From assembly GCA_012729095.1 (NCBI GenBank), contig JAAYDU010000061.1, positions 1 to 64,000 on the forward strand: a stretch of 64,000 nt of DNA, in the 5' to 3' direction. Positions within the stretch are counted from its first letter, which is position 1; every line of letters starts with the position of its first letter. Under the pieces are notes generated by a model. The model saw only the letters and a list, made by a program, of their open reading frames with translations. It searched no databases and was not told the DNA's origin. Shown here piece after piece: positions 33,989 through 57,800 of this stretch. The position numbers and the translations under genes were made by a program. Origin of the DNA: Methanobacteriota archaeon (GTDB taxonomy: Archaea; Thermoplasmatota; Thermoplasmata; Methanomassiliicoccales; UBA472).

Positions 33989-34052
33989 TCAAAGAGTTTA
34001 TTACTCTCGATTGAAATTTGGACGCAGAAAACTTCTTTGGAGGAAAATAGAA

Positions 34053-34688
34053 ATGGCAAATATGGACGCATTGATTGAGATTGTCGTTAAGGGAAGGATC
34101 AAGGAGTCGAAGGGAGCAACCCAGGCCCTCCTCGATGCCGGAGTCACCGCAAGGGAGATCATCTTTGATGGGCTGAGCAAGGCCATGGAGATCGTCGGTG
34201 AGAAGTACGAGAAGAAGGAGTACTTCCTGCCCCAGGTTCTTCTGTCCGCCCAGACCCTGTACCAGGGATTGAACCTGGCCCTGCCGAAGTTGGACACCGC
34301 TTCCGCCGATGCTGCCGGAAAGATAGTCATCTGCGTGGTCGAGGGAGATGTCCACGACATCGGCAAGAACATCTGCAAGGCCCTGCTGACCGGCGCTGGC
34401 AACACCATGTTTGACATGGGTCGCGACGTGCCTCTGAAGGACATCATACAGAAGGCCAAGGACGAGAACGTCAACATCATCGCCACCTCTACCCTCATGA
34501 CCCCCACCCTGGCGGGCATGAAGGAGATCGAGAAGATGCTGGCCGAGGGCGGCCTGAAGGGCAAGATAAAGACCATGGTCGGCGGCGGTGCCACCTCCCA
34601 GGACTTTGCCAAGAGCATCGGTGCGGATGGCTGGGGCTACGACGCGAACGAGGCCGTTCGTGTTGCCGTCCAGCTCCTGAAACACTAA
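34053..34688 (+). CDS. Corrinoid (B12-binding) methyl-carrier protein of the MtaC/MtmC/MtbC/MttC superfamily
   Basis: VVEGDVHDIGKNICKALLTGAGNTMFDMGRDVP (DxHxxG cobalamin motif), MVGGGATSQDFAKSIGADGWGYDANEAV; SD GGAGG upstream of ATG 34053; ORF-track start at 33936 is too early. Confidence 0.92.
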   Translation: MANMDALIEIVVKGRIKESKGATQALLDAGVTAREIIFDGLSKAMEIVGEKYEKKEYFLPQVLLSAQTLYQGLNLALPKLDTASADAAGKIVICVVEGDVHDIGKNICKALLTGAGNTMFDMGRDVPLKDIIQKAKDENVNIIATSTLMTPTLAGMKEIEKMLAEGGLKGKIKTMVGGGATSQDFAKSIGADGWGYDANEAVRVAVQLLKH

Positions 34689-34720: not shown

Positions 34721-34790
34721 TAATCTTATAATAATAAGATAGCTATAATAAAAATAACAGTGCAAAATTTTATACTTGCAGGTCATCATA

Positions 34791-35615
34791 ATGTACAGGT
34801 TGAAAATGTCCTCCAATGAGATCGCTGTAGAAAAGGAGATCGCGCATATCAAGCGAAAGGTGGAGGAGATGGGGCTCGAACTTCGGTACATAAGCGCCAT
34901 GTTGCAGAGCTCTCAGGGGCCGGATTTCCGACGACCTGAGATGTTCGACATGCTGAGGGACGAGGCGCGGCAGAAGGCGGAAGGCCGTCTGGACGCGGGA
35001 ATGGCCAAGAGATGCGAGATGCGTCCGGAATGCCGCCAAAGGTTCATGGAGCTCCTGGACGAGAACCTCCGGCTTCTGGACCGCCCGCGGATCGCCGAGG
35101 AGGACATTGAGCGTCAATCGGAAAAGCTGGCATCCCTGCGCTCGATGGCCGCCTCGGGAGGGTGCGAGGAGTGCTTCCGCGAGGTTGGCTCGATCTTCCA
35201 AGACCAGACCGAGCTGATGCATCAGCTGCAGCTTTACCGCAGCAGGGACGAGGTCCGGGACAGCATAGAGGTGATGCCGGAAGCGACGGTGGTGCGCGAC
35301 ATACTGGAGCCGCTTTCCAACCCCCAGAGGATGTTGATAATGAAGGCGCTTAGCCGTTCCCAAAGGTCGTTCACCGAACTTTCCTCGATAACCAACCTTC
35401 GCGGGGGGAACCTGCTGTTCCACCTGCAGAGGCTGACAGGTACCGGCATGGTGTTCCAGAGAGGAGGGCATGGCGAATACGCCCTCACTCAAAAGGGCCA
35501 GAGGTCTCTGGAGGCGGTGAGCGACCTTTACATCAGAACGTCCGTCGCGGAGCAGCAGGGAACGGCCGTCATCAACGATCACGAACGGGCGCCCATGTCC
35601 GCCAGGACCGAATGA
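34791..35615 (+). CDS. ArsR-like winged-helix regulator with Cys-containing N-terminal region
   Basis: LEPLSNPQRMLIMKALSRSQRSFTELSSITNLRGGNLLFHLQRLTGTGMVFQRGGHGEYALTQKG. Confidence 0.75.
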   Translation: MYRLKMSSNEIAVEKEIAHIKRKVEEMGLELRYISAMLQSSQGPDFRRPEMFDMLRDEARQKAEGRLDAGMAKRCEMRPECRQRFMELLDENLRLLDRPRIAEEDIERQSEKLASLRSMAASGGCEECFREVGSIFQDQTELMHQLQLYRSRDEVRDSIEVMPEATVVRDILEPLSNPQRMLIMKALSRSQRSFTELSSITNLRGGNLLFHLQRLTGTGMVFQRGGHGEYALTQKGQRSLEAVSDLYIRTSVAEQQGTAVINDHERAPMSARTE

Positions 35616-37033: not shown

Positions 37034-37084
37034 CCCAGTTAATTTCTTATATATCGGCCTTCGTAGATGCGGAGAGAGATCAAC

Positions 37085-39055
37085 ATGGCTGCTAGAAGAT
37101 TGGGATTGGGACTGGACACTGGCGGTACCTACACCGACGCCGCGATCGTTGACATGGACACATTGGAGGTGTTGGCCAAGGGCAAGTCCCAGACCACCTA
37201 TCAGGACCTTTCCATCGGAATGCTCGGTGCGATAGACGAGGCATTGCATAGCGACGCTTACGATCGGGCGGACATAAATTTCGTGGGGCTGTCCACCACC
37301 CTGGCCACCAACTCCATACTCACCGGAAAAGGGGGAAAGGTCGGCCACATAGGCATCGGCTGGACGCCCATGCCCGGTTACAGGTCCGGCGCAGACATGG
37401 ACGCCTACGTGCAAGGTGGCCACGGGGTATGGGCGCAGCAGCAGGCCCCCCTGGACACAAAGGCTTTGGACGAAGCGATCGGGTCCATGAGGGACGAGGT
37501 GGACTCCTTCGTGGTCTCTAGCCATTTCAGCGTTTACAACCCCTCCCACGAGCTGGAGGCGGCCCGCAGGATCAAGGAGCTCACCGGGTTGCCGGTGGTG
37601 CTGGGTCATCATCTGACATCTCAGCTGGGAGTGCCCGAGAGGAGCGTGACGGCCGTATTGAACGCCCGGCTGCTTCCGATAATCTCTGATTTCCTGGACG
37701 GAGTGGAGAGGTCCCTGATGGAAAGGGGGGTAGATGCCACCATACTGGTGTTCAAGGGCGACGGCACCCTGATGAACATCGAGAAGGCCAGGGAAAGGCC
37801 GGTGGAGACCATACTGTCCGGACCGGCGGCCAGCCTGATGGGCGGCAAGCTGCTGTGCAAGAAGGACAACTTCATGGTGGTGGACATCGGGGGAACCTCC
37901 ACGGACATAGCGTATCTGGACGACGGGTTCCCTCGCATATCCAAGGAGGGGGCCACCGTCGGTCACTGGCGGACCAGGGTACGGGCCATAGACATATGGA
38001 CGGTGGGGCTGGGAGGCGATTCCCACGTCATCTCCGACCAGCGCGGCCGTTTCAAGATAGGTCCGGAAAGGGTGGTCCCCCTGTCCGTGGCCTCATCCTC
38101 CTATCCCAACATCAAGGACAAGATGAACTCCACCAGCGAGACCAATTACTACCTTCACGTGGAAAGGAACACCTCCAAGCTGTCCGAGAAGGAGAGGGCG
38201 CTCTATCAGTTCGTCAAGGCCAACCCGATATGCACCCTGGAGGAGATACGCCTTGGCGTTCCGGAGGTGTACACCTACCGGGACCTGGTCAAGCGGCTCA
38301 AGGACCGCGGCTTCCTGCAGATGACCGGGCTCACCGCCACGGACTTCATGCACGTGCAGGGGCACTTCGACCGTTTCGATACGGAAGCAGCCACGTTAGG
38401 GGTACAATTCATGGCCAACTGGGGGCACAAGCCCTTCGACGAGTACGTCGGATCGTTCCAGAGGGAGTTCGTCACCCGGGTGGGCGAGGAGGTCATGCGC
38501 AAGGTGGTCTTGGACGAATCGGGGGACATGCCCGAGAGCCCCGGTTTCAACTACGTGCTGAGATCCATGGTCAACGGGAACTCGGGGAGCAGCATAGGCG
38601 CCCATACCGCTCTGGACCGGCCATTGGTGGGCATAGGGGCTCCCACGCACATTTACATGCCGCCGCTGGAGGAAAGGATGGACGTCGAGGTGATCATGCC
38701 CAGGGACCACGATGTCGGGAACGCAGTGGGAGCGGTGTGCAGCCAGATATCCGAGACGGTGACCGCGCAGGTCTTCCCGAACATGGACAACGTGTTCTTC
38801 GTGCTCGGGCCGTTCGGCTCTCCGATGACCTATTCCCACGTGGAGCAGGCCATCAGCTCCGCCCGCCGGCATGCTGAGGAGTACGTGAGGCAGAGGGTGT
38901 ACGAGGCGGGGGCGGAGAACATCCGCGTGCGCAGCGACACATACGAGAACAAGTTCTTCGGCGGTGACAACGTGGAAGGGGAGCAGGTGGCATGGGTGGA
39001 CATCGTGGCCAGGGCGACCGGGGACCCCGTCTCCAAGGATAAGAAGGCTCTCTGA
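37085..39055 (+). CDS. Hydantoinase/oxoprolinase family (HyuA-like ASKHA) protein
   Basis: LGLGLDTGGTYTDAAIVDMDTLEVLAKGKSQTT; TLATNSIL; SGPAASLMGG; VVDIGGTSTDIAYL. Confidence 0.88.
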   Translation: MAARRLGLGLDTGGTYTDAAIVDMDTLEVLAKGKSQTTYQDLSIGMLGAIDEALHSDAYDRADINFVGLSTTLATNSILTGKGGKVGHIGIGWTPMPGYRSGADMDAYVQGGHGVWAQQQAPLDTKALDEAIGSMRDEVDSFVVSSHFSVYNPSHELEAARRIKELTGLPVVLGHHLTSQLGVPERSVTAVLNARLLPIISDFLDGVERSLMERGVDATILVFKGDGTLMNIEKARERPVETILSGPAASLMGGKLLCKKDNFMVVDIGGTSTDIAYLDDGFPRISKEGATVGHWRTRVRAIDIWTVGLGGDSHVISDQRGRFKIGPERVVPLSVASSSYPNIKDKMNSTSETNYYLHVERNTSKLSEKERALYQFVKANPICTLEEIRLGVPEVYTYRDLVKRLKDRGFLQMTGLTATDFMHVQGHFDRFDTEAATLGVQFMANWGHKPFDEYVGSFQREFVTRVGEEVMRKVVLDESGDMPESPGFNYVLRSMVNGNSGSSIGAHTALDRPLVGIGAPTHIYMPPLEERMDVEVIMPRDHDVGNAVGAVCSQISETVTAQVFPNMDNVFFVLGPFGSPMTYSHVEQAISSARRHAEEYVRQRVYEAGAENIRVRSDTYENKFFGGDNVEGEQVAWVDIVARATGDPVSKDKKAL

Positions 39056-39245: not shown

Positions 39246-40271
39246 TTAGCCCTTTATGGCCTTGACGATGGCAGCCAGGTTCTCGTCGGCTATGAGCGCG
39301 GACAGCCCGCATCCCGGAGATATGACATCGAAACCGGCAGCCGCACAGCGCTTGGCATGTGCCGCGCAGTCCGCAGGGGTTCCCTGCAGCAGCGGGTTCA
39401 CAACGCCGATGTTCCCGATGAGCGCGGCGCGCTTGTTGACGATCTTGACGCCCTCTTCAGGAACGACCTTCTCCTCGATGGACAGGGCCTTGACGCCGAC
39501 ATTGATCATGTTGTTCAGGATGTCGGTGGTGTTGCCGCATATGTGCAGGACACCGGTGGCGCCCTTCACGCTAGCGAGGGAGTCTCCCATGTAGTATCCA
39601 GCATACTCGTCGAACATGTCCGGGGACAGCAGGTCGGTGCTGGCGGACGGCTCGGACATCTGGACCACATCGGCCCCGGCATCCGACAGCGCCTGGGTGT
39701 ATCCCTTGCATATCACGTTGGCGGCGGCGACCCACTTCTTGACGAGGTCCGGGTCGACCATGATGTACAGCACGAGGTTCTCGGTGCTGACGCAGTGGCC
39801 AGCCAAGGTGAACGGTCCGGTGTTGCCGGCGATGATCGGGTACTCGGCCCCGAACTCCGCCTTCATCTTCGTTATGGCCTCCTGGCAGATGGCCGCGCGG
39901 CCGCTCTTCAGGAAATCGTCGACGCCCATCAGGTTAGGCTCGTCCTCGAGTGCGAAGGGGTGTCCCTTCACCATCGGGGTCCTGTCCTTGCGGCCCTGGT
40001 CGACGGTGGTCACTTTAAGGCTGTCTATCTCAACGGTCAAGCAGAACGGGGCGCGAACGGCCTCGAACCCGAATACCTTGGCCTGTCCAGATCCCAGCTT
40101 GACCATCTTGTCGACGTCGTAGTGGGCCTCAGGCCATGATACTCCCAGCTTGTCCATCTGTCCCATGGTTGCGCTCTGCGTGAAAACGGCGACCGGCGGC
40201 CGGTCGTGCTGCTTTCCCGCCAACGCGTCCAACACTCTGTCCCTTGGAGTCAATTTTTCAGACAAATTCAT
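39246..40271 (-). CDS. MtaA/CmuA (uroporphyrinogen decarboxylase-like) methylcobamide:CoM methyltransferase
   Basis: LTPRDRVLDALAGKQHDRPPVAVFTQSATMGQMD; Zn-type HICGN motif and terminal PGCGL; start set at 40271 with GGGGGA upstream. Confidence 0.88.
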   Translation of the reverse strand: MNLSEKLTPRDRVLDALAGKQHDRPPVAVFTQSATMGQMDKLGVSWPEAHYDVDKMVKLGSGQAKVFGFEAVRAPFCLTVEIDSLKVTTVDQGRKDRTPMVKGHPFALEDEPNLMGVDDFLKSGRAAICQEAITKMKAEFGAEYPIIAGNTGPFTLAGHCVSTENLVLYIMVDPDLVKKWVAAANVICKGYTQALSDAGADVVQMSEPSASTDLLSPDMFDEYAGYYMGDSLASVKGATGVLHICGNTTDILNNMINVGVKALSIEEKVVPEEGVKIVNKRAALIGNIGVVNPLLQGTPADCAAHAKRCAAAGFDVISPGCGLSALIADENLAAIVKAIKG

Positions 40272-40447
40272 TCCCCCTATAATCCAGTAGGATTCTGACC
40301 TGTTTCGAGTATCATATTTTCCGTACATTAATCTATCGGGTATGATTGTGAGCATTACATCCTTTAACGTGGTTAAACCCGTGATATCTGGCATGGTAGA
40401 GGCCCTATGAAACGATTGTAAAAAACATTAACAAACGTTCAACCAAC

Positions 40448-41488
40448 CTAGGGGGAAGGCAACCGTCCTGCTACCGCCTCGCGAAGGGCGGCAATGTTCT
40501 CCAACGGGGTCTTGAAGGCCATCTCGCATCCCGGGGCCATCATGTAACCCGGTCCTTCTCCCCAGTCGGACATCATAGCCCTCGCCTCGAGGGCCACCTC
40601 CTCCGGGGAGCCCCTGAACATCAGGAACATCTGGTCAATGCCCCCGACCACCGTTGTCCTGGAGCGGAACATGTCGTAAACGTCCTTGCGGTCCTCGGCC
40701 TTGGGGGTGACGTGCAGGGCGTCAACCTTCATTTCCAGGTATCCATCGAGGTAAGGGTTCGCGGCGCAGTTGTGCACTATGGACCTCAGGCCTTTCGAGC
40801 TGAACGAGGAGAGCACATCGGAAAGGAAGCCGAGGTCGAACCTCCGCAACCCCTCCACGGAGTTCACGTCGGCGCTGCAGGTGCCATCCTCTATGAAGAC
40901 ATGGTACACGCCCATTCTCGCCAGGTGCTCTCCGTACATGGCCGAGGACATGACCAGCTTCTTCATCAGCTCCTCGACAGGCCCAGGTTCCGACCAGGTG
41001 GCGATCAGAAGGTCCTCGTACCCCATGACCTCCCCGCACATCATCATCGGCCCGTTTATGCACCCGACCACGGCCACCTCCTTTCCGCAGGTCTCATGAA
41101 GCGTTCCCGCCGCCCTGAGCGGAACGGACCAGAACTCGTCCTTCATGGGATCGACGGGTTGCACCTTATCGATGTCAGCAAGTGAGGATATGGCGTAAAC
41201 GTCGGAGCGGGGGTAATAGTCCTTCTCCGGCCACTTCCAGGAGGTCCCGTGCGCGTGCGCCTCCACCAGAATGTCTCCCCATCCGGCCATGACGTTGTCG
41301 AAACCGGTGACCCTCTGGGCGGCCATGCATATCCTGGCGAACCTCTCCGGGTCGTGATAGCCCTCCCGCATGGTCAGCCCGGCGGCCTTCAGGACGGACC
41401 TGGCCGCTCCGAGGTGCTGGTACATTATCGGTGGCCGATCCACCGGCGACCTCTCGATGGCCGCCTCGAACCTCTCCCGCGGGAACAT
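40448..41488 (-). CDS. Uroporphyrinogen decarboxylase (MtaA-like) family protein, putative methyltransferase
   Basis: MFPRERFEAAIERSPVDRPPIMYQHLGAARSVLKAAG; HNCAANPYLD; MAPGCEMAFKTPLENI. Confidence 0.82.
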   Translation of the reverse strand: MFPRERFEAAIERSPVDRPPIMYQHLGAARSVLKAAGLTMREGYHDPERFARICMAAQRVTGFDNVMAGWGDILVEAHAHGTSWKWPEKDYYPRSDVYAISSLADIDKVQPVDPMKDEFWSVPLRAAGTLHETCGKEVAVVGCINGPMMMCGEVMGYEDLLIATWSEPGPVEELMKKLVMSSAMYGEHLARMGVYHVFIEDGTCSADVNSVEGLRRFDLGFLSDVLSSFSSKGLRSIVHNCAANPYLDGYLEMKVDALHVTPKAEDRKDVYDMFRSRTTVVGGIDQMFLMFRGSPEEVALEARAMMSDWGEGPGYMMAPGCEMAFKTPLENIAALREAVAGRLPSP

Positions 41489-41527: not shown

Positions 41528-41980
41528 TCACTCCTTGACGCGCTTCTCCTTCTCGTAGAAGTCGTTGATGACCTCGTAATCCATGGAGCGCTCGGCCATG
41601 AACCCATTGGTGAACTCCAAGGAGGTCTCCCTCACCTGGGGGTCCCACATGCCGTGCACGATCACGTGGACGATCAGCTCGCCCCGCTTCATGTTCGCGG
41701 AGCCGAAGCGGTTCTGAACCGTCGGTGGAATGTCCATGTCTATGAGGCTGACGGAGATGGTGGGGCCTCCCTCGGCGGTCAGGAAGGCCTTCACATGGCC
41801 GATCATGTCCGCCCCCCGGGCGAAGCATTCCCCGGTTATCCCGTTCATAAGGTCAAGCACCATTCTCTCCGAGCGTTCACCGTCCAAAGGGTCCTCCGCG
41901 TAAAGCCGTAGCCACATGGAGAACTTACCCAGCTCGTCCGAGGCCCGGTGCGTGAGCAGCTGTCTTTCCTTCAGGTCCAT
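41528..41980 (-). CDS. Conserved hypothetical protein inside the CobW/UroD-like operon
   Basis: 150 aa ORF tightly spaced between CobW-like GTPase and UroD-like gene. Confidence 0.65.
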   Translation of the reverse strand: MDLKERQLLTHRASDELGKFSMWLRLYAEDPLDGERSERMVLDLMNGITGECFARGADMIGHVKAFLTAEGGPTISVSLIDMDIPPTVQNRFGSANMKRGELIVHVIVHGMWDPQVRETSLEFTNGFMAERSMDYEVINDFYEKEKRVKE

Positions 41981-41984
41981 CCGT

Positions 41985-42650
41985 TCACTCCCCGTACCTC
42001 TTGTCGAAGCGGTCCTCCGCCTCCGTCAGGTCGTACACCACCGCCTCTCCGTGCACCATTAGGTCGGCCACCTCCTTGATGCCCTGCCCGGTGCGCGATG
42101 AGCCGTAGTAAAGCCGGACATCGGGGTTGAGCCCCCTGACCATCTCCGTGACCGTTCGCAGCCTCTCCTCCCCGACCGCGTCCACCTTGTTTATCAGCAC
42201 GGCATCCGCCTCCACGATCTGGGTCTCTACCAGCCTGCGCACGTTGTTCATGAGCTTGTCGATGCGCAACGCGTCAACGAAGGTCACTATCGGGGACTGT
42301 TCCAGCATCTTCGGCATCTTCTTCACCGTCTCCGCCGCGGCCTGGCGCAGGCCAAGGGGTATTGCCACTCCGGTAGGCTCCACCAGTATTATGTCCGGGC
42401 GATAGCTCATGTAAATGCCAGTGACGGTGGTGGTCAGGGTGCCCTGCACCTCGCAGCATATGCACCCGCCGGATATCTCCCGGGTGTTGATGCCGTGCAC
42501 CTCCATGCACTTGCGGTCAACATTGATATGGCCAACGTCGTTCACTATGGTGGCCACCTTGAGCCCGCGCGTGTTGAGCTCCTTGGCCACCTCGATCAAG
42601 AATGTCGTCTTGCCGCTTCCCAAGAAACCTGTGACCTGGGCTATCCTCAT
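41985..42650 (-). CDS. CobW/HypB/UreG (G3E) family GTPase
   Basis: MRIAQVTGFLGSGKTTFLIEVAKEL; EISGGCICCEVQGTL metal-binding CxCC; LVEPTGVA; LINKVDAVG. Confidence 0.9.
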   Translation of the reverse strand: MRIAQVTGFLGSGKTTFLIEVAKELNTRGLKVATIVNDVGHINVDRKCMEVHGINTREISGGCICCEVQGTLTTTVTGIYMSYRPDIILVEPTGVAIPLGLRQAAAETVKKMPKMLEQSPIVTFVDALRIDKLMNNVRRLVETQIVEADAVLINKVDAVGEERLRTVTEMVRGLNPDVRLYYGSSRTGQGIKEVADLMVHGEAVVYDLTEAEDRFDKRYGE

Positions 42651-42816
42651 GGTATCATTCCATCGCCGTTAAGGTCCTTACGGGTATAATTCCGTTGCCT
42701 CGCAGCGTGCATGGAGGGTCGCAAGGAACATGGGAAGCTGGATACCTCCGCAAAGTCCGAACCTCCGGGAACAGTATTATAAATCCGACGAAAGCTTTCT
42801 CCCCACGAGGTTATCC

Positions 42817-44463
42817 ATGGCATTGGGAGTCGCGCTCGATTTGGGCACTAGCGGTTACCGGGGACACCTGGTAGATCTGGACAAGAAAGGTAAGATCCTG
42901 GCTACGGCCATTACCATGAGGCACCCGCTACCTGGGGCCAACATCATGGACCATTTGCACTTCTGGATGGAGAACGGTCCTGAGGTAGGCCATCGTATAG
43001 TCATCGAGACCGTGGACAAGCTGATCGGTACCTTGGGGGCCAAGCCAGAGGAGATCGAGAGGGTGTCCGTGTGCGGCAACCCCGCGCAGATGTCCATGTT
43101 CGAGAAGATCGAGGTACGTGATCTGGCGTACGCCGGGCAATCCATACTCAAGAGGCTGAACGTCAAGATCCCCGAACGCAAGGCGCACTCCATCAAGGCC
43201 GAGGAGCTGGGAATGAACTCGGTGAGGCGCACCGCCGAGGTCAGGATACCTCCATCGATCCGCCACGAGATAGGAGCTGACGCTCTTGCCATGATCATGA
43301 AGACCGGGCTGATGGACAAGAAGGAGACCTGCCTGGTCACCGATTACGGCACCAACGCCGAGATGGGCCTGTTCTACAAGGGTGAACTGTACACTGGCTC
43401 CGCCGCTGCCGGGCCGGCCATGGAGGGGCAGTCCATCGACTTTGGGATGCTGGCCGCGCCCCAGGCCATTTCCGATATCACACTGGGCGAGAACGGCAAA
43501 TGGTACAACATAGTACTCAACGACAAGCTGCACCCGACAAAATCCTCATTGGTCGATCCACGCACCGGGGAAGAGCAGCGCCTTGACGGGGTAATAGCCC
43601 GCGGCATAACCGGAACAGGGACCGTGGCCGCCATGGCCGTAGGGTTGGAGACCGGCATCATCAAGCTGCCGTACGTGGACACTCCGGACCACAAGATACA
43701 TCTCACCAACGGCATACACTTCTGCGAGGAGGACGTCCGGGAGGCCGGCAAGGCCACCGGGGCCATACGCGCCGGGCACCGCACCCTCATAGAGGAGGTG
43801 GGAGTGGATGAGCGCGATATCAAGACCATGTACATGGCCGGGGCCTCCGGTACCTACGTCGATCCTATCAAGGCGCAGACCGTAGGGCTCATCCCCAGGA
43901 TCCTGGAGAAGACCGTGCAGGCCGGGAACACCTCCCTCATGATGTCCTACGACATACTGGTGGACGATGACGGCCTGGACAAGATGCAGGACGTGGCCAA
44001 CGCCATTTCCAGCAAGCACATCATGTTCGCCACCAGCAAGGTTTTCGAGGACATATACGTCAACGAGATAGCCTACTGGACCGAGGGCATGTCCATGGAG
44101 ATGTACAACGAGATGATCAAGCATGCCGGGCTTCGGCCGCTGCCTGACATCGTCCGTCCCAAGGAGACCATACGCCTGGTGTTGTCCGACATACCGGTGA
44201 TCGGCGCTCGCGGACTGAAGACCTTGGACGATGTGGGCGTCTACCTCATGGGGTCCTTCGAGGGATGCATAGGCTGCAAGAAGTGCCAGAAGGAATGCCC
44301 CGAGTGCGCCCTGCAGGTATCGACCGTCGGCGAGAAGAAGTACCAGATCAGGATAAACACCGAGCACTGCTTGGGAACGGCCTGCAAGAACTGCCAGTCC
44401 GTCTGTCCGGAAGGGGTCTTCGACTTCTCCGGTCTCAAGATAGTCAAGAAGGGAGAAGCTTAG
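42817..44463 (+). CDS. RamA-like corrinoid protein reductive activase (ASKHA domain plus C-terminal ferredoxin domain)
   Basis: ALGVALDLGTSGYRGHLVDLDKKGKILATAITMRHPLPGANIMDHL; TDYGTNAEMG; C-terminal CIGCKKCQKECPECALQ and CKNCQSVCPEG. Confidence 0.92.
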   Translation: MALGVALDLGTSGYRGHLVDLDKKGKILATAITMRHPLPGANIMDHLHFWMENGPEVGHRIVIETVDKLIGTLGAKPEEIERVSVCGNPAQMSMFEKIEVRDLAYAGQSILKRLNVKIPERKAHSIKAEELGMNSVRRTAEVRIPPSIRHEIGADALAMIMKTGLMDKKETCLVTDYGTNAEMGLFYKGELYTGSAAAGPAMEGQSIDFGMLAAPQAISDITLGENGKWYNIVLNDKLHPTKSSLVDPRTGEEQRLDGVIARGITGTGTVAAMAVGLETGIIKLPYVDTPDHKIHLTNGIHFCEEDVREAGKATGAIRAGHRTLIEEVGVDERDIKTMYMAGASGTYVDPIKAQTVGLIPRILEKTVQAGNTSLMMSYDILVDDDGLDKMQDVANAISSKHIMFATSKVFEDIYVNEIAYWTEGMSMEMYNEMIKHAGLRPLPDIVRPKETIRLVLSDIPVIGARGLKTLDDVGVYLMGSFEGCIGCKKCQKECPECALQVSTVGEKKYQIRINTEHCLGTACKNCQSVCPEGVFDFSGLKIVKKGEA

Positions 44464-45309
44464 TTGAGGCTCACCTGCCTGGTAGAGGATAGCTCGGGCA
44501 CCGCGAACCCCGGCATGTCCATTTCCAAGGCCGCCGGCAACTTCCTCGCCGAGCACGGCCTGTCCATACTGGTGGAGACCGACAGGGGCAAGAAGGTGCT
44601 GCTCGACACCGGTACCTCGGAAAGGGCGTTCCTGAACAACATCGGCCTGATCGGCCTTAGACCGAAGGACATAGACCTGGTGTTCATCTCTCACGGACAC
44701 TACGATCACCTGGGCGCTTTGCCTCTGCTTCTGAGGGAAGGGGTACCGGTGCACACCCACCCCCTGACCTTCCATGGCCGGCGCTTCTTCGGGACGCCCA
44801 GCTCGAAAAGGGACATAGGGCCTTCCGCGGAGCTCATAGCGCTACTGAAGGAGAACCCCCCGGTATGCGACGACCGGCCCAGGGAGCTGGTGACGGGGGT
44901 GAGCACCACCGGGGAGATCGCCAGGAGCACCGACTTCGAAGTTCCCGCCAACTTCCTCATCGAGAGGGGCGGCGTGATCTCCCAGGACCTCATCCAAGAG
45001 GAGCAGGCGATATGCATATCCACCCGTAGGGGCCCCCTGGTGCTCACTGGCTGCGGACATCCCGGGGTCGTGAACATATTGACCCAGGTCCGCTCCCGCA
45101 GCGATGGCGAGATCTTCATGCTGGCCGGCGGGTTCCACCTGTGGAAGGCCGGTCCGGACGTACTTCAGCGCACCGTGGAGGGGGTCAAGGGCGTCGGCGT
45201 GGAAAAGGTGGCACCGATGCACTGCACCGGGTTCGAGGCGACCAAGATGTTCTCGGACCGTTTCCCCGGCTTCGTCCTCATGGGCACTGGCTGTTCCATG
45301 GAGATCTAG
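44464..45309 (+). CDS. MBL-fold metallohydrolase
   Basis: LVFISHGHYDHLGALPLLLREGVPVHTHPLTF; VLTGCGHPGVVNIL; AGGFHLWKAG; MHCTGFEAT. Confidence 0.85.
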   Translation: MRLTCLVEDSSGTANPGMSISKAAGNFLAEHGLSILVETDRGKKVLLDTGTSERAFLNNIGLIGLRPKDIDLVFISHGHYDHLGALPLLLREGVPVHTHPLTFHGRRFFGTPSSKRDIGPSAELIALLKENPPVCDDRPRELVTGVSTTGEIARSTDFEVPANFLIERGGVISQDLIQEEQAICISTRRGPLVLTGCGHPGVVNILTQVRSRSDGEIFMLAGGFHLWKAGPDVLQRTVEGVKGVGVEKVAPMHCTGFEATKMFSDRFPGFVLMGTGCSMEI

Positions 45310-46190
45310 AGGTCCCTGGTCGCCTGCTCCATCATCATGTCGGCGAAGGTGGCCACGGGCAGGGCGCGCTTGGCGTATTCCAGTGGTCCGTAGACGACGT
45401 GATCGGCCCCGGCAGCTATGGTGATGGCCACCGCCGAGCTGTCAACGCTTCGCCTGGCCTCCTTGGGGTCCTTCATTCCTTCCAGGTTCAGGCACTCCAC
45501 CGCGTTGTGCAGCGCGCAGCCCGTGGGCAGCCCCCACTTGGCCTTGGCCACCAGAATGGAACGGAGGGCGGAACCGGCACTGAGGTCCGGGGAGGTGACC
45601 GCGGTGTCCACCAGGACCTTCTCGATCCCCAGGTCCTCCGCCGTCTGTACCAGCCCCTGCGGTATCAGATCGTCCCCGTTCTCCAGCATGTATATCCTCC
45701 CCTTAACGTCGTCCCCGCGCGGGTTGAAGGCCAGCACGACCGCGTTGACCGGCGGGCAGGCGCGCAGGGCTTCCATCTCCTCGCCAGAGAGGCCGGCATT
45801 GATGGTGTTGTACACCACCCTGTCCAATATCCCCATCTCCCGCGCGCTCTTCAGGAAAGACAGGCGCACCTCGGAGCTGCCTGAATCGGCGAACAGCGGT
45901 CCCGGCACCGCGTCGCACACCGCCTCCAAGTAGGATCGGGCCGCCTCCTTGCTCTCGGCGTAGAGCATAAGGCCGGAGGGGCATTCGCAGCTCTTCACCA
46001 GATCGAGATGGTCGTTGAGCCGGTCCTTCAGCTTGACAAGGTCCAATGTGCCCTGTCGTGGGTCCAGGACCACCGAGTGCCGGGGATAGAAAAGCGAACC
46101 GACCATCATCGTCCTCCTCCTTCCAGGCTGCCCGCCGACCTTGACCCCCCCTATGACGTGCTCCCTTTGCGCGGTCTGGAACTTGTACAT
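45306..46190 (-). CDS. MtrH-like tetrahydromethanopterin S-methyltransferase subunit H homolog
   Basis: VIGGVKVGGQPGRRRTMMVGSLFYPRHSVV; FADSGSSEVRLSFLKSAREMGILDRVVYNTINAGLSGEEMEAL; VVLAFNPRG..GRIYMLENG; GIEKVLVDTAVT; LRSILVAKAKWGLPTGCALHNAVE. Confidence 0.93.
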   Translation of the reverse strand: MYKFQTAQREHVIGGVKVGGQPGRRRTMMVGSLFYPRHSVVLDPRQGTLDLVKLKDRLNDHLDLVKSCECPSGLMLYAESKEAARSYLEAVCDAVPGPLFADSGSSEVRLSFLKSAREMGILDRVVYNTINAGLSGEEMEALRACPPVNAVVLAFNPRGDDVKGRIYMLENGDDLIPQGLVQTAEDLGIEKVLVDTAVTSPDLSAGSALRSILVAKAKWGLPTGCALHNAVECLNLEGMKDPKEARRSVDSSAVAITIAAGADHVVYGPLEYAKRALPVATFADMMMEQATRDL

Positions 46191-46191
46191 G

Positions 46192-46959
46192 TCAGACCCC
46201 CATAAGATAGGAGCGCATTCTCAGGGCCAGTTCCACCGAGGGCACGGTGATCATCCTTCCCTGCAGGGGCTCCAGAAGCACCCCGAACTCCTGGGAGACC
46301 ACTATCATGCCCATGTCCGTGTTCAGTCCCTCGGAGGGGAGGCGCAGCATGGGGCTAATGAAGTCGTCCGAGGCCAGGTGCATCTGGCGGGCGATGCTCC
46401 CCCCATCTCCCGTCAGACCATTTGAACCAACGAGCAACCCTTCGCCGGGGTACGGTTCGTAGCTCCGCTCCGCCAGTGACCGAAGAGTTCGCTCCAGCCG
46501 GTCCCTGCTCTCCGGCTCGAACTCGTATATTGGATCGTAAGCGGCTATCTCCTGGGGCGTGGTATCGTCCATGATGTCCACTAGCTCCACCTGCTCGCGG
46601 AAACGCTCTATGGCCTGCAGGGAAAGGTCGCATAGGAATGGGATGGCGGACCTGGTGTTCCGGATCCGCCGGTGCTCGTCCACGCCGTTCTCCATCAGAG
46701 CGTGCAAGGCCGCTCCCGGAAAGTGCCCGAACTCCTCCTTGCCGCAAAGCACCAGCACCCTCAACCGGGGGTTGGACACGACGTTCATGATCACCTTCTC
46801 CAGACCGATGTTCTCAGTTTTCAGTATCCCCTTTATTCGGTAGAGTTCCGGCGGCACCTCCACCGCACCCCTGCCGACTATCAGCACCGCGACATACGAA
46901 CTCTCTTTGCCCAACACGTAATCGCCGCTGGCCACGGGCCATTCGTCCTTTCCCGCCAT
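46192..46959 (-). CDS. Soluble MtrA-like corrinoid protein (homolog of Mtr subunit A without membrane anchor)
   Basis: EWPVASGDYVLGKESSYVAVLIVGRG; KTENIGLEKVIMNVVSNPRLRVLVLCGKEEFGHFPGAALHALMENGVDEHRRIRNTRSAIPFL; GH motif retained; 1-nt gap to MtrH-like gene. Confidence 0.9.
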   Translation of the reverse strand: MAGKDEWPVASGDYVLGKESSYVAVLIVGRGAVEVPPELYRIKGILKTENIGLEKVIMNVVSNPRLRVLVLCGKEEFGHFPGAALHALMENGVDEHRRIRNTRSAIPFLCDLSLQAIERFREQVELVDIMDDTTPQEIAAYDPIYEFEPESRDRLERTLRSLAERSYEPYPGEGLLVGSNGLTGDGGSIARQMHLASDDFISPMLRLPSEGLNTDMGMIVVSQEFGVLLEPLQGRMITVPSVELALRMRSYLMGV

Positions 46960-50086: not shown

Positions 50087-50142
50087 GGCCGGCCTACAAA
50101 CCTTTTATCTATTCCTTTGGGCCTTTTCTATCAGGTGTTAAT

Positions 50143-50850
50143 TTGACCGACTACGCGAAATGCTCCCAGGTCATCAAGGACGTGCTGGGAATAGATAACG
50201 AGCCGGTGGCGGTCACCCTGGTAAAGAAGGGTCAGACCCTTCCCGAGGGCTACAAGGTCCCGGAGAAGAACATCCGCCACTGCCAATCGATCATGAGGGC
50301 CAGGAGAGGGGAGAAGTTGCTTTTGACCGGCGACAAGCACGCCTGTCACGTGGGCGCCTCGGCCCTTGGCCTGGTGCCAATACCCGACAAGGTCAAGACG
50401 GGGGAGTTCCATTATAACATCGGTCTCTTCGACTCCCCCGCGGCGGCCAAGAAGATGATAGAGGAACGCCCTGAGCTGGAATGCGGGAGCGTGGTGGCCA
50501 CGGCCATCTCTCCTCTGAGCAAGACCGAGATACCTCCCGATGTGGTCATCGTTACGGGCATGCCAGAGCAGATATACTGGCTGCTGCCGGTCGCCGCTAA
50601 GTTCAAGGAGGGCGGGGAGGTAACGGTGAAGCTGGAACCTTTCCAGGCCAGCTGCGCCTATTCTACCGTGTACCCATACAAGAGCAACAGCCTGAGCATG
50701 TCCATTGGATGCTACGGGTGCCGTCGCTCCACGGACCTGGAACCCTCCGAGATGCTGGTAGGCATTCCCGCCACCAAGCTGGAGGAAGTGGTGGAGATAC
50801 TGGACAAGATAAGGGCTCAAAGAGAGAAGGGCAAGGTCAAGACCGGTTGA
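50143..50850 (+). CDS. DUF169 family protein
   Basis: NEPVAVTLVKKGQTLPEGYKVPEKNIRHCQSIMRARRGEKLLLTGDKHACHVGASALGL; TTG start. Confidence 0.8.
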   Translation: MTDYAKCSQVIKDVLGIDNEPVAVTLVKKGQTLPEGYKVPEKNIRHCQSIMRARRGEKLLLTGDKHACHVGASALGLVPIPDKVKTGEFHYNIGLFDSPAAAKKMIEERPELECGSVVATAISPLSKTEIPPDVVIVTGMPEQIYWLLPVAAKFKEGGEVTVKLEPFQASCAYSTVYPYKSNSLSMSIGCYGCRRSTDLEPSEMLVGIPATKLEEVVEILDKIRAQREKGKVKTG

Positions 50851-51480: not shown

Positions 51481-52677
51481 ATGGAACTGCACCCCGCTCC
51501 CAAGACATACACCAAGGACGGCCATAGGGCCATAAGTCCCGCGGCCACATTAAAGCGGATAGAACCGCTCATGCCCCGGGCGGGCATCACCAGGGTGGCG
51601 GACATAACCGAACTGGACCGCATCGGTGTGCCGGTTTTCTCCAGCATACGGCCAGGGGCCAAGGAGGGTGCGATATCCATTTACAACGGCAAGGGGGCCA
51701 GCAAGGAGCAGGCCAAGGTCTCCGCTATAATGGAGGCCATGGAGCGCTGCTCAGCAGAGCCCAGGGCCGATGACAGGTACCGCCGGGACATGATGGACAA
51801 CATGCTGTCGTCCGAGAACGCCCTGGACCCCCGAACCCTCATACTGCCTCCATTGATGAACATGCACGTCCTTCAGCAGCCCATAGCCTGGGTGAAGGGC
51901 TTCGACCTGATGGAGGGTGAGGAAATATGGGTACCGGCATGCGCAGTGTACCATCCATACGTGGCCGTGAACGACCTGCAGCTGTTCCGATCGAACACCA
52001 ACGGGCTGGCATCCGGGAACAACATGGAGGAGGCGGTGCTGCACGCCATGTGCGAGGTGGTGGAGAGGGACGCCTGGTCCATCTGCGAGGCCCGGCGCAA
52101 GCCCCGGCAGGACATCTTGGTTGGCGATGACTGTCCTGTTGTCTCCGAACTATTGGAAAAGTTCAGCAGCCAAGGCGTGGAGGTCCATCTGAAGGACCTG
52201 ACCAGCGATGTGGGCATACCCACCATAGCCGCGGCGGCCGATGACGTGCGCATGAAGGACCCGGCACTTTTGAACCTGGGTGTCGGGACGCATCTCAGCG
52301 CAAGGGTAGCGGCGATAAGAGCGCTCACCGAGGTGGCGCAGAGCAGGTGCACGCAGATACACGGCGCCCGGGAGGACACCACCAAGGCCGACCTGAACCG
52401 AACCGTTGGATACGAGAAGATGAAGAAGCTCAACTCCATGTACTTCTCTTCGTCGGAAGGGACCGGCATCGCGGACTTTCCCGAGCAGGACACCAAGGAC
52501 CTGCTGGAGGACATCGAGCTTGTTCTCGCACGCCTGGACTCCATCGGCGCTGACAAGGTCATCGCCGTTGATCTCACCCGTCCCGACCTGAACGTTCCAG
52601 TGGTGCGCATGATCGTACCGGGCATGGAAATATACGCCATGGACATGGACCGCTTGGGTCCGAGGCTGCTCGAATGA
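51481..52677 (+). CDS. ycaO: YcaO-related McrA-glycine thioamidation protein (methanogenesis marker 1)
   Basis: YcaO fold sequence (EQAKVSAIMEAMERCSAEP, ASGNNMEEAVLHAMCEVVERDAWS); adjacent to tfuA and mcr operon. Confidence 0.92.
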   Translation: MELHPAPKTYTKDGHRAISPAATLKRIEPLMPRAGITRVADITELDRIGVPVFSSIRPGAKEGAISIYNGKGASKEQAKVSAIMEAMERCSAEPRADDRYRRDMMDNMLSSENALDPRTLILPPLMNMHVLQQPIAWVKGFDLMEGEEIWVPACAVYHPYVAVNDLQLFRSNTNGLASGNNMEEAVLHAMCEVVERDAWSICEARRKPRQDILVGDDCPVVSELLEKFSSQGVEVHLKDLTSDVGIPTIAAAADDVRMKDPALLNLGVGTHLSARVAAIRALTEVAQSRCTQIHGAREDTTKADLNRTVGYEKMKKLNSMYFSSSEGTGIADFPEQDTKDLLEDIELVLARLDSIGADKVIAVDLTRPDLNVPVVRMIVPGMEIYAMDMDRLGPRLLE

Positions 52678-53309
52678 GCCGCCCGGTCGTGTATCTCGGT
52701 CCCAGCCTGCCCGTCGAGGAGGCCAGGGCCCTGCTGGACGCCGAATACCGGCCACCGGTGAAAAGAGGCGACCTGTCCGCCCTCGGCCCCGCCGAGGTCG
52801 TAGGGATAATCGACGGTGCGTTCCTGCAGAACTGCTCGGTCGGACACCGGGAGATACTCTCCCTGCTATCGAGAGGGGTAAAGGTGATCGGCGGGGGAAG
52901 CATGGGAGCCCTGCGGGCCGCAGAGATGCAGGCGTACGGGATGATCGGCGTGGGAAGGATATTCCAGATGTACGCCGACGGTGTCATCGAGGGAGATGAC
53001 GAGGTGGCCCTGGTGTTCGACCCAGCTTCTATGGAACCCCTGTCCGAGCCCATGGTCAACCTGCGTTTTTTGATGGATAAGATGCTAAAGGAGGGAAAGG
53101 TCTCCGCCGGGGAACATCACGGCATTCTGTCTTCCTATCGTTCGATCTACTATCCAAGACGCACCATAGCCGCCTTCCTCGATACTTCGGAAAAGTTCCT
53201 AGGGGAGGAGAGGGGCCGCGTTTTCCGTCAGGATTTCCCAATTCTCTATCAGGATGTGAAAAGGGAGGATGCTATTTCCGTCATTAAACGCATTGGAGAA
53301 CTGGTGTAA
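52674..53309 (+). CDS. tfuA: TfuA-related McrA-glycine thioamidation protein
   Basis: PVVYLGPSLPVEEARALLDAEYRPPVKRGDLSAL; GGGSMGALRAAEMQAYGMIGVGRIF; ATGA overlap with ycaO. Confidence 0.92.
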   Translation: MSRPVVYLGPSLPVEEARALLDAEYRPPVKRGDLSALGPAEVVGIIDGAFLQNCSVGHREILSLLSRGVKVIGGGSMGALRAAEMQAYGMIGVGRIFQMYADGVIEGDDEVALVFDPASMEPLSEPMVNLRFLMDKMLKEGKVSAGEHHGILSSYRSIYYPRRTIAAFLDTSEKFLGEERGRVFRQDFPILYQDVKREDAISVIKRIGELV

Positions 53310-53592: not shown

Positions 53593-54924
53593 ATGGCAAA
53601 GTACAAGGACAAGGTGGACTTGTATGACGACAGAGGCAAACTGATCGAGAAAGACGTGTCTCTGGACGCTATAAGTCCTTTAAACAACGCCGCCATTAAG
53701 CGAACCATATCTCTGACGAAGAGAACTATCGCCGTCAACCTTGAGGGTATTGAGAAGGGTCTCAAGACCGGAGCGGTTGGAGGATTGAACGTTCCCGGCA
53801 GGGTCTTGGACATCGCTGTAGTGGCGAACGCTGACAAGCTGGCCAAGAAGATCAAGGACACTCTGAAGGTCGCCAAGGACGATGACACTGAGATCAAGAT
53901 GATGGCGGGCGGAAAGAGAATGGCCGTGACCTGCCCCAGTAGCAGGATAGACACTGGAGCCGAGTACACCACGGGATACACCGCGGTGGCCGCCGCTGTC
54001 ACCGAGGCAATCATCGAACAGTTCGATGTGAACATGTTCGAGGCCTCGATGGTCAAGGCAGCTGTCTGGGGAAGGTACCCGCAGACCATCAACATGGTCG
54101 GGTCCAACCTGAAGAGCATCCTCGACGTCCCGCAGCTGAACGAAGGTACCGGCTACGCCCTCAGGAACATCATGGCTAACCACATAGTCATGCTGACCGG
54201 CAGGAACGCCATGAACGCCGCCGCGCTGTCTTCTATATATGAGACCGTGGCCGCCTACGAGATGGGCGATGCGATCGGCAACTTCGAGAGGCAGCACCTG
54301 CTGTCCCTGGCCTATCAGGGACTGAACGCCAACAACCTGGTCTACAGCTGGGTAAAGGAGAACGGCAAGACCGGCACCGTCGGTGATGTCGTAGCTTCCA
54401 TGGTTGGCCGCGCTCTTGATGACAAGGTCATCAAGAAGGGAAAGAAGTTCCCCTCCGGATTCGTTGAGTACACAACCAACGACTTCCCGCTGTGGAACGC
54501 CTATGTTTCCGCTGGTCTGCTGGCTGCGATCTGCGTGAACATCGGTGCCGCTAGGGCTGCGCAGGGTATCCCATCCACCATTCTGTACTACAACGACCTG
54601 GTGGAGCACGAGACCAGCCTGCCCGGAACTGACTACGGTAGGGCCATGGGTACTTCCGTCGGTATGTCCTTCTTCAGCCACTCTATCTATGGTGGCGGCG
54701 GTCCTGGACTGTTCCACGGAAACCACGTGGTTACCAGGCACGCCAAGGGAACCGTCATACCCGTTATCGCCGCTGGATGCTCTCTCGATGCTGGTACTCA
54801 GTACTTCAGCGCAGAGAACACCTCTCTGATGATGGGGGAAGTGTTCGGTGAGATCGACGTGTTCAAGGGCCCGTTGAAGATGGTCGGCAAGGAGGCCAAG
54901 AAGCTGAAGGAGCAGGGTGCTTAA
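53593..54924 (+). CDS. mcrB: Methyl-coenzyme M reductase subunit beta
   Basis: 443 aa; [64 protein letters not shown]; strong SD AGGAGG. Confidence 0.98.
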
Positions 54925-54926
54925 AC

Positions 54927-55349
54927 ATGAGTCAGCCTACCTCCGAGGAGGTACCCCTTCCTGAGATCATGGTATTTCCGGAGCGTATGCTCTTGGCCGA
55001 TACCACCGAAACGCTGCTGAACAAGCTGCATGAGGTGAAGAACGTCAAGAGGATCACCGTGCAGGGCGAGGACCTGCCGGCGATCATGAAGGCAGGCCCC
55101 GGTACCGGCGGTCCGGTGGATCATCCAGAACGCCGCGTCATCAAGGTCGCAGGCAAAGATATGGAACTGAAGGTATTGGTCGGTAGGATACTCGTAGAGA
55201 TATCCGACATGGACTTCGTACCTCAGGCCATGAAGGATATTAAAGAGGTATGCGAAAGCGTGTTCCCCTTTAATTTCACTCTAGAGGTAGGCAGATACTC
55301 AAAGTTCAAGCCAACTGTATCCGACTACAAAAAAGGATTGGTGAAATAA
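54927..55349 (+). CDS. mcrD: Methyl-coenzyme M reductase operon protein D
   Basis: 140 aa; [41 protein letters not shown]; located between mcrB and mcrG. Confidence 0.95.
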
Positions 55350-55350
55350 C

Positions 55351-56133
55351 ATGGCTAAATCAAAGTATAAGGCACAATTCTATCCTGGCAACACCCTGCC
55401 CGCCAAGAACCGGAGACGCTTCTTGGACCCCAGCGAGAAGCTGGAGAAACTCCGCGACGTTCCGATGGACGACGTGGTCAAGATCCTGGGTCACAGGACC
55501 CCTGGTTCCGACTACGCTACCATCCACCCGCCGCTGGAGGAGGGTAACGAGCCCGACTGCCCTATCAGGGCGCTGGTCGAGCCCATCGAGGGTGCGAAGA
55601 AGGGAGACAGAATCAGGTACGTTCAGTTCACTGACTCCGTGTACTATGCCCCTATCATTCCGTATGTTAGAGCTCAGATGTACATGTGGAGATTCAGGGG
55701 AATCGATACCGGTACCCTGTCTGGAAGGCAGATCATCGAGATGAGGGAGAGGGACGTCGAAAAGGTGGCCAAGGAACTCATCGACAACGAGACCTTCGAT
55801 ACCGCTAGGACCGGTATCAGGGGAGCGACCGTGCACGGCCACGCCGTTAGGCTGGACGAGAACGGGCTGATGTTCGATGCCTGGCAGAGGTTCCGGTGGA
55901 ACGCGAAGAAGGGCGAGGTCGAGTATGTGAAGGACCAGGTCGGTGTCCCGTTGGACAAGCCTGTTCCGGTCGGAAAGCCCATGCCCGAGAAGTGGTTGAA
56001 GGACCACACTACCATGTTCCGCGCCGACGGCGTAGACATGAGGGACGACGAGGAGGTCATGAGGCAGAACCTCAGAATACACACCCTCAGGACCAAGTGT
56101 GGCTTCCAATCCTTCAATGTTAAGGAGGACTAA
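55351..56133 (+). CDS. mcrG: Methyl-coenzyme M reductase subunit gamma
   Basis: 260 aa; [60 protein letters not shown]. Confidence 0.98.
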
Positions 56134-56135
56134 AT

Positions 56136-57800
56136 ATGGCGAAGGAAAAGGAAAAGATGTTCATCGCCGCCATGCACAAGAAGTTCAAGGAGGAACCCAC
56201 CGAGGTCCGCTCCAAGCACTATTCCTACGGAGGCTGGAGACAGTCGAAGAGGAAGCGGGAGTGGGTTGAGCAGTCCAACAAGATTGCCAAGGCCCGTGGA
56301 ATCCCCATGATGAACCAGGATGTTGGTGTGGCTCTCGGCCAGCGTGTCTTGATGCCCTACCAGTTGTCCCACACGGACATCTATGGCGAGGCCGATGACC
56401 TTCACTGGGTCAACAACGCTGCTATGCAGCAGTGCTGGGACGACATACGCAGGACCGTCATCGTCGGTCTGGATGTGGCCCACAACGTTATCGAGAAGAG
56501 GCTGTCAAAGGAGGTCACCCCTGAGACCATCAACCGCTACCTGGAGGCTGTTAACCACACCATGCCGGGCGGCGCAGTGGTACAGGAGCACATGGCCGAA
56601 CTTTGCCCTGAACTCGTGAAGGACTCCTATGTCAAGGTGTTCTCTGGTGACGACGAGCTTATCGACGAGATCGACAAGTGCTACGTCATCGACATAAACA
56701 AGGAGTTCCCCGCGAAGCAGGCCAAGGAGCTGAAGGCCGCTGTCGGCAAGAAGCTGTGGCAGGTCGTTCGTGTCCCGTCCATCGTTGGACGTGTGTGCGA
56801 TGGTGGTACCATATCCAGGCACTCTGCTATGCAGATATCCATGGCCTTCATCACCGCGTACAGACTGGCTGCCGGTGAAGCGGCTATCGCCGACTTCGCC
56901 TTCGCCGCCAAGCACGCCGCGATGGTCGAGATGGGTACCATGATGCCCGCCAGGAGGGCTAGGGGTAACAACGAGCCCGGTGGAATTCCGTTCGGTGTAC
57001 TGGCCGACTGCGTCCAGAGCACCAGGACCCACCCTGACGACCCCTGCAGGTCTTCCCTGGAGGCTGTCGCTCTCGGTTCCGTCATCTACGACCAGATATA
57101 CCTCGGATCGTACATGTCCGGCGGTGTCGGGTTCACTCAGTACGCAACCGCCTCCTACACCGACAACATTCTGGAGGACTACACCTACTGGGCGTACGAC
57201 CTGCTGAAGGACAAGTACGGCGGTCTCTGCGCAAGCGAGCCGAGCACCGAGCTGATGGAGAAGCTGGGTTCCGAGATCAACTCGTACTCCCTCGAGATGT
57301 ACGAGCGCTACCCGGCCGCCATGGAAGCCCACTTCGGTGGGTCCCAGAGGGCCTTCGTGGCCGCTGCCGCCACTGGTATCGGCTGTGCATTTGCCACCGG
57401 CAACGCCAACTTCGGTGTGAACGGATGGTATCTGTCTCAGTACCAGCACAGGGAGAGGCTCGGAAGGCTCGGGTTCTACGGATACGATCTGCAGGACATG
57501 TGCGGTGCATCCAACTCGTTCTCTTACAGGAGCGACGAGGGTCTGCCCCACGAGCTGAGAGGACCGAACTTCCCGAACTACGCCATGAACGTGGGCCACC
57601 TCGGTGGTTACTGCGGTATATCCATGGCCCCGCACGCTGCTCGCGGCGACGCGTTCGTGTGCAACCCGCTGGTCAAGATCGCCTTCTCGGACAAGAACCT
57701 GCCCTTCGACTTCGGCAACATCACCCGGGACTTCGGGCGCGGTTGCCTCAGGGAGTTCATGCCTGTGGGTGAGAGGACCGCGATCATACCCGCTAAGTGA
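56136..57800 (+). CDS. mcrA: Methyl-coenzyme M reductase subunit alpha
   Basis: 554 aa; [106 protein letters not shown]. Confidence 0.99.

Follow-up and report, generated by a model that had tools for sequence, protein, structure and literature searches.

A soluble MtrA-MtrH pair in a conserved gene cluster beside mcr in Methanomassiliicoccales: a candidate methyl-folate entry to methanogenesis

The methanogens of the order Methanomassiliicoccales count as H2-dependent methyl reducers. In one member of this order, an mtrA-like and an mtrH-like gene adjoin each other. The window, by which we mean the whole 64,000-nucleotide stretch analyzed here, carries this pair in a cluster close to an mcr operon (Table 1). 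The pair itself is already known. Excerpts of Speth and Orphan 2018 (PMC6147122) describe mtrAH without mtrB-G, with a C-terminal extension of MtrA, in the 'Lake Pavin cluster' of Methanomassiliicoccales (MALP), and put forward a methyl-THF:CoM methyltransferase hypothesis for it; excerpts of a 2024 survey (PMC10804542) report that most of the environmental clade possesses mtrA and mtrH, speculate on H2/CO2 methanogenesis and describe the environmental clades as largely methanol-specific. Our analysis favors, with a probability that we would put at roughly one half, a soluble methyl-THF:corrinoid:CoM methyltransferase system that pumps no ions, is encoded beside mcr and has mtrAH as its pterin side.

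Both open reading frames are intact, in the order mtrA-mtrH, and the one-nucleotide spacing given in an earlier note on this DNA was confirmed (base 46191). Since both products score below the NCBIfam equivalog cut-offs (117 bits against 249 for mtrA, 213 against 271 for mtrH), they are homologues and not typical Mtr subunits; their Pfam matches are to PF04208 (2e-38, confined to residues 4-140) and PF02007 (6e-64, residues 11-293), respectively. In the structure of Methanothermus fervidus MtrA with cobalamin, the cofactor is contacted by Asp17, Tyr18, Lys52, Thr53, Asn55, Gly57, Val61, Asn64 and His84, the last being the cobalt ligand in the M. fervidus and M. marburgensis proteins (PMC4915002). 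Alignment places this ligand, which the earlier note read as kept, at His79 of the window MtrA, where it is invariant in 41/41 homologues; the remaining contacts are identical (D13, Y14, K47, T48, N50, G52, V56 and N59), and G52, like H79, is invariant across the 41 sequences. A hydropathy scan of the window MtrA detected no transmembrane helix, the best 19-residue value past residue 130 being 0.97 versus 1.7-2.6 in canonical MtrA tails, which agrees with the earlier reading of a protein without C-terminal membrane anchor. The AlphaFold2 model (mean pLDDT 82) adopts the MtrA fold over residues 1 to about 165, with 5laa as the closest PDB structure (TM 0.82 on the target), followed by a conserved C-terminal extension of about 90 residues that is modeled with lower confidence and has no PDB match. 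Thorarchaeota MtrA appeared from coverage to carry the extension and were rejected as carriers, as those matches stop at about 230 aa.

The source genome, 99.4% complete in 72 contigs, was included in a survey of 147 genomes of Methanomassiliicoccales. MtrE, the membrane subunit that was searched, is missing from all 147, with positive controls that worked, and none of MtrB, C, D, F and G was seen adjoining the mtrAH pair; the view that the pair stands without an Mtr complex thus holds. Because both subunits are clearly homologous to Mtr, one could suppose that they belong to an authentic Mtr complex, intact or degraded, which uses methyl-H4MPT and whose other subunits were lost from the assembly. 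We consider this very improbable: besides the order-wide absence of MtrE and the missing anchor, the H4MPT-tail patch is absent from MtrH (see below), two genes of the H4MPT branch, ftr and mch, are described as missing from the order (PMC10804542), and the MtrA sequences sampled from the order group in a single clade of our tree (100/100), to the exclusion of those of canonical Mtr, of Thorarchaeota and of other Thermoplasmatota. A canonical or degraded Mtr was rejected on the first three points, and the joint absence of MtrE, anchor and basic tail patch also means that ion pumping is not expected. The likeness to the Mtx-type homologs of Methanosarcina drawn in the earlier note did not hold up either. 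The mtxXAH genes are defined by mtxX within the same transcription unit (PMC3087415), and mtxX had no match among the scanned neighbors of mtrAH, two flanking genes being without family; the Mtx reading of the pair was rejected.

Several other arrangements of these genes were encountered. Family f6 contains a second MtrA subtype without mtrH beside it (L062, L064, L067, L068), in which the cobalt loop is one residue shorter, directly ahead of its Gly-His, and R-S stands in place of K-T in the cobalamin pocket. In two f5 genomes (L058:2744-4305, L066:6645-8224), the MtrA gene is convergent to that of MtrH, with no shared operon, and this MtrH is much more divergent (28-36% identity). Other Thermoplasmatota (L121, L130, L136, L142, L147, L148) encode an MtrA of 185-202 aa directly followed by MtrH, in a separate clade, and Thorarchaeota/Asgard loci (L093-L095, L098, L101 and others) exhibit MtrH-MtrA-MtrH triads with two different MtrH copies per MtrA.

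We compared the pterin site of the window MtrH with those of characterized enzymes. For M. mazei MtrH and for MtgA, four pterin-binding residues have been identified (PMC12774963); in M. marburgensis MtrH they are Asp102, Asn128, Asp195 and Asn229 (PMC10998594). All four are kept in the window MtrH (D102, N128, D195, N229) and are near-invariant, in 30-31 of 31 homologues. The pterin- or folate-corrinoid methyl transfer that the earlier note listed among the possible activities stands as the likely chemistry of the pair. A basic patch at the cavity exit of MtrH (R239, K242, K243) has been proposed to hold the tail of H4MPT or H4SPT (PMC12774963, PMC10998594). The K242/K243 columns are deleted in 31/31 homologues of the window MtrH and the R239 column is variable; K242/K243 likewise fall in a deletion in MtgA, a methyl-THF user. 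This shared loss points modestly to folate rather than H4MPT as the probable substrate. The pocket is not identical to those of the reference enzymes, position 75 being Met in all 31 homologues and Gln or Asp in MtrH/MtgA, and the window MtrH scores below the MtgA equivalog NF047990 (NCBIfam; 151 bits against a cut-off of 550).

Table 1. Features of the mtrAH cluster and of the neighboring mcr operon in the window.
Feature	Coordinates	Strand	Evidence
MtaC/MtgC-type corrinoid protein ('MtxC', unrelated to mtxX)	34050..34688	+	PF02607/PF02310; conserved in cluster
Hydantoinase/oxoprolinase-type ASKHA ATPase-like protein (HydA)	37067..39055	+	PF01968 5e-37, PF05378 6e-25
MtaA-like methylcobamide:CoM methyltransferase	39246..40394	-	TIGR01463 276 bits, PRK06252 292 bits, both above cut-off
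UroD2, second URO-D-family methyltransferase	40448..41488	-	PF01208 5e-51
p150, 150-aa protein adjoining CobW-type gene	41528..41980	-	AlphaFold2 pLDDT 89
Short COG0523/CobW-type G3E GTPase without C-terminal domain	41985..42650	-	PF02492 1e-38
RamA-type ATP-dependent reductive activase of corrinoid proteins	42730..44463	+	TIGR04270 709 bits
Metallo-beta-lactamase-fold (MBL) protein, conserved in cluster	44464..45309	+	PF00753 2e-14
MtrH-like pterin:corrinoid methyltransferase, 294 aa	45306..46190	-	PF02007, pterin residues
MtrA-like corrinoid protein, 255 aa, soluble	46192..46959	-	PF04208, His79, AlphaFold2 fold
mcrBDGA operon, conserved neighbor of mtrAH cluster	53593..57800	+	Names from ORF reading and tblastn

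The pair belongs to a cluster whose core order, corrinoid protein-HydA-MtaA-like-RamA-MBL-MtrH-MtrA, recurs across loci in three families of the order, the hydantoinase-like gene being a core member consistently located between the genes for the corrinoid protein and the MtaA-like enzyme. The cluster usually lies near YcaO, TfuA and mcr genes, and mcr was found beside mtrAH in at least 15 loci. The corrinoid protein, the one B12-binding_2 corrinoid protein found in the source genome, is closest to the methylamine-type (TIGR02370, 180 bits) and MtgC (164 bits) models, under their cut-offs. The MtaA-like protein passes the cut-off of 235 bits of the MtaA/CmuA family model TIGR01463 and reaches 306 of the 400 bits set for the MtaA equivalog; it matches MtaA 4ay7 at 4e-62 and keeps the H-x-C...C zinc motif as HIC and PGCG. 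Aligned with the same M. mazei MtaA structure, UroD2 keeps this motif as HNC and APGC. The RamA-type activase is a conserved cluster member well above its cut-off (500 bits). The MBL protein has TM1679 and 2p4z as nearest solved relatives, and its gene adjoins ramA in genomes of families f1, f2 and f3.

To this core, the window's genus has added UroD2, p150 and the CobW-type GTPase, while clusters of f3 (L174, L175; e.g. G005) and f2 (L178; e.g. G001) keep the core without these three genes, and CobW, p150, mtrA and mtrH are adjacent in several genomes of family f6 (L059, L061, L070). The best solved relative of the GTPase is YjiA. No family match was found for p150 in Pfam; as Foldseek linked it to YjiA weakly (prob 0.99, E 9e-3), the idea that p150 is possibly the split-off C-terminal domain of the CobW-type GTPase is tentative. 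In two relatives, HydA-, p150- and CobW-like genes form a second cluster with those of UroD and a corrinoid protein, with no mtrAH (L179:3371-9790 in G138, L182:3666-9977 in G144), which suggests a general role of such accessory genes in UroD-type corrinoid systems. A YcaO-TfuA pair, known for the thioglycine of McrA, lies at 51481-53309 of the window, directly before mcr. A conserved gene for a DUF169 protein (50140-50850) separates, in most loci, the mtrAH cluster from the mcr region, and an ArsR-type protein encoded at 34776-35615, flanked by the genes of the corrinoid protein and of a membrane protein, is a candidate regulator of the cluster.

Neither MtaB nor an MTTB-family protein (MttB) was detected in the source genome, and PylS gave no match above cut-off (best 38 bits against 178); judged by these three proteins, the genome does not classify as that of a methanol or methylamine methylotroph. 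Across the order, mtrA occurs in 41/147 genomes, always with mtrH (41/41), which is found in one further genome. Genomes with mtrA more rarely contain mtaB (14/41 vs 90/106), mttB (3/41 vs 61/106) and pylS (9/41 vs 82/106). Twenty-eight genomes lack all three genes; mtrA is present in 25 of these, and the three exceptions are each less than 90% complete. When only genomes at least 90% complete are considered, mtrA is found in 11/11 of those without mtaB, mttB and pylS, which span five families, and mcr genes lie beside the cluster in eight of the eleven (the window, G004, G005, G133, G137, G138, G142 and G145). In genomes devoid of methanol and methylamine methyltransferases, the mtrAH route may be the main methyl entry to methanogenesis; some relatives have both mtrAH and mtaB, so that mtrAH is not always the sole entry. 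The presence of metF is also associated with mtrA (33/41 vs 15/106, p 4e-14 over the 147 genomes), significantly overall and within f6 but not outside f6 (27/34 vs 9/11, p 1), and all these co-occurrence p-values are optimistic because the genomes are related and not phylogenetically independent.

Contig C39 of the source genome encodes FolD, Fhs (formate-THF ligase), an HdrA-like protein, FlpD, MetV, MetF, an AcsE-type methyltransferase and an AcsV-type activator, and the bacterial-type methyl-THF branch (Fhs, FolD, MetV, MetF) is complete. FolD, Fhs, MetV, MetF and AcsE were found together in 4/5 relatives examined; in the fifth (L161), represented by a shorter stretch, FolD was not seen. 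At L157:6020-9307, MetF and MetV adjoin an HdrA-like ferredoxin protein and FlpD; HdrA-like and FlpD proteins are likely the electron input for methylene-THF reduction. The source genome also encodes CdhD/CdhE-type proteins, and together with a complete folate branch these would allow methyl-THF to be obtained, in principle, from formate or acetyl-CoA. The same proteins lend some support to a role of the pair in feeding methyl groups to CODH/ACS for carbon fixation, unconnected to CoM. We find such a role improbable, given that the separate AcsE-type methyl-THF:CFeSP methyltransferase and AcsV encoded with MetFV leave no need for MtrAH at this step, and that mtrAH adjoins mcr, the MtaA-like gene and ramA instead.

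In the soluble methyl-THF:corrinoid:CoM system that we favor, the substrate, the order of partners and the direction of methyl transfer are predictions drawn from the observed absences, synteny, gene content and conserved active-site residues. MtrH would transfer the methyl group of 5-methyl-tetrahydrofolate to the MtrA corrinoid in its Co(I) state, and might also methylate the MtaC/MtgC-type corrinoid protein. The MtaA-like zinc enzyme would then pass the methyl group from one or the other corrinoid protein to coenzyme M, a step that we infer from synteny, with RamA repairing inactivated Co(II), and methyl-CoM would be delivered to Mcr. The methyl-THF could originate from formate or CO2 via Fhs-FolD-MetFV, or from acetyl-CoA via AcsE. 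Methyl transfer from methyl-H4MPT to CoM is associated with about -30 kJ/mol (PMC4915002); assuming a similar energy for methyl-THF, no pump should be needed for its methyl group to pass downhill to CoM.

UroD2 and the corrinoid protein could, as a counterpoint to this model, serve an unknown methylated substrate. In an oxidative or assimilatory version of this idea, that substrate would methylate the corrinoid protein via UroD2, the MtaA-like enzyme would send most methyl groups to CoM, and MtrH/MtrA would move some to THF, from which they could be oxidized to formate or enter acetyl-CoA synthesis or C1 biosynthesis, in the manner of MtoA/MtgA in methoxydotrophs and betaine users. It is consistent with the direction in which MtoA and MtgA, both of the MtrH family, move methyl groups, from corrinoid proteins to H4MPT or H4F (PMC8630106; NCBIfam MtgA model), with UroD2, CobW and p150 lying in the same cluster, with the related UroD'-corrinoid pairs accompanied by HydA', CobW' and p150' at the two loci without mtrAH described above, and with the methanol disproportionation through mtrAH proposed in excerpts of Speth and Orphan (PMC6147122). 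We nevertheless regard it, as the main rival of our model, as the less likely of the two. The f3 and f2 genomes keep the core without UroD2, CobW and p150, so a substrate-specific methyltransferase is not obvious there, the source genome has no MttB, and, with no pump, moving the methyl group from methyl-CoM onto THF would presumably run uphill.

If the proposed methyl-THF:CoM transfer is extended to whole metabolism, the lineage might produce methane from formate, from H2+CO2 or from acetate by way of bacterial-type THF enzymes and a soluble methyl-THF:CoM methyltransferase, bypassing H4MPT and the Na+-pumping Mtr, a scenario that we advance tentatively. Should several lineages lack methanol and methylamine enzymes and supply Mcr with methyl groups from methyl-folate instead, methanogenesis would have a route along the folate C1 pathway that dispenses with the Mtr ion pump, predictions of the substrates used by environmental members would change, and the question of how such lineages conserve energy would arise. 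The cluster provides a defined gene set for testing. Three elements appear new relative to the excerpts of PMC6147122 and PMC10804542, in which we did not find them: the placement of mtrAH within a conserved cluster beside mcr, the complementary absence of MtaB, MttB and PylS, and the comparison of the pterin and tail-patch residues of MtrH. The completeness of the methyl-THF branch in the source genome is a further addition of the present analysis.

Compared with known systems, the window pair shares with the Na+-pumping methyl-H4MPT:CoM complex MtrA-H the cobalamin domain and cobalt histidine of MtrA and the fold and four pterin residues of MtrH, but differs by the lack of MtrE, anchor and tail patch and by the extra C-terminal extension. 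As in the MtxXAH systems of other methanogens, mtrA and mtrH homologues occur together outside an Mtr operon, although in a different neighborhood in which mtxX has no match among the scanned genes. The resemblance to MtgA/MtoA resides in the MtrH family, the pterin residues and the nearby MtaC/MtgC-type corrinoid protein and RamA-type activase and, as compared for MtgA, in the short loop without tail patch; those enzymes, however, pair with demethylases of the MttB or MtoB type and work in the direction of the pterin, whereas in the window system MtrH is accompanied by MtrA and by an MtaA-like CoM methyltransferase. That enzyme is of the same family as MtaA (PDB 4ay7), with the zinc motif kept, yet lies under the MtaA equivalog cut-off in a genome without MtaB. 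Finally, while methanol genes are reported for MALP in excerpts of PMC6147122, unlike the MtaB-free source genome, the mtrAH genes described there are similar to those of the window in combining a soluble MtrA with MtrH in the absence of mtrB-G, a C-terminal extension of MtrA and a divergent MtrH.
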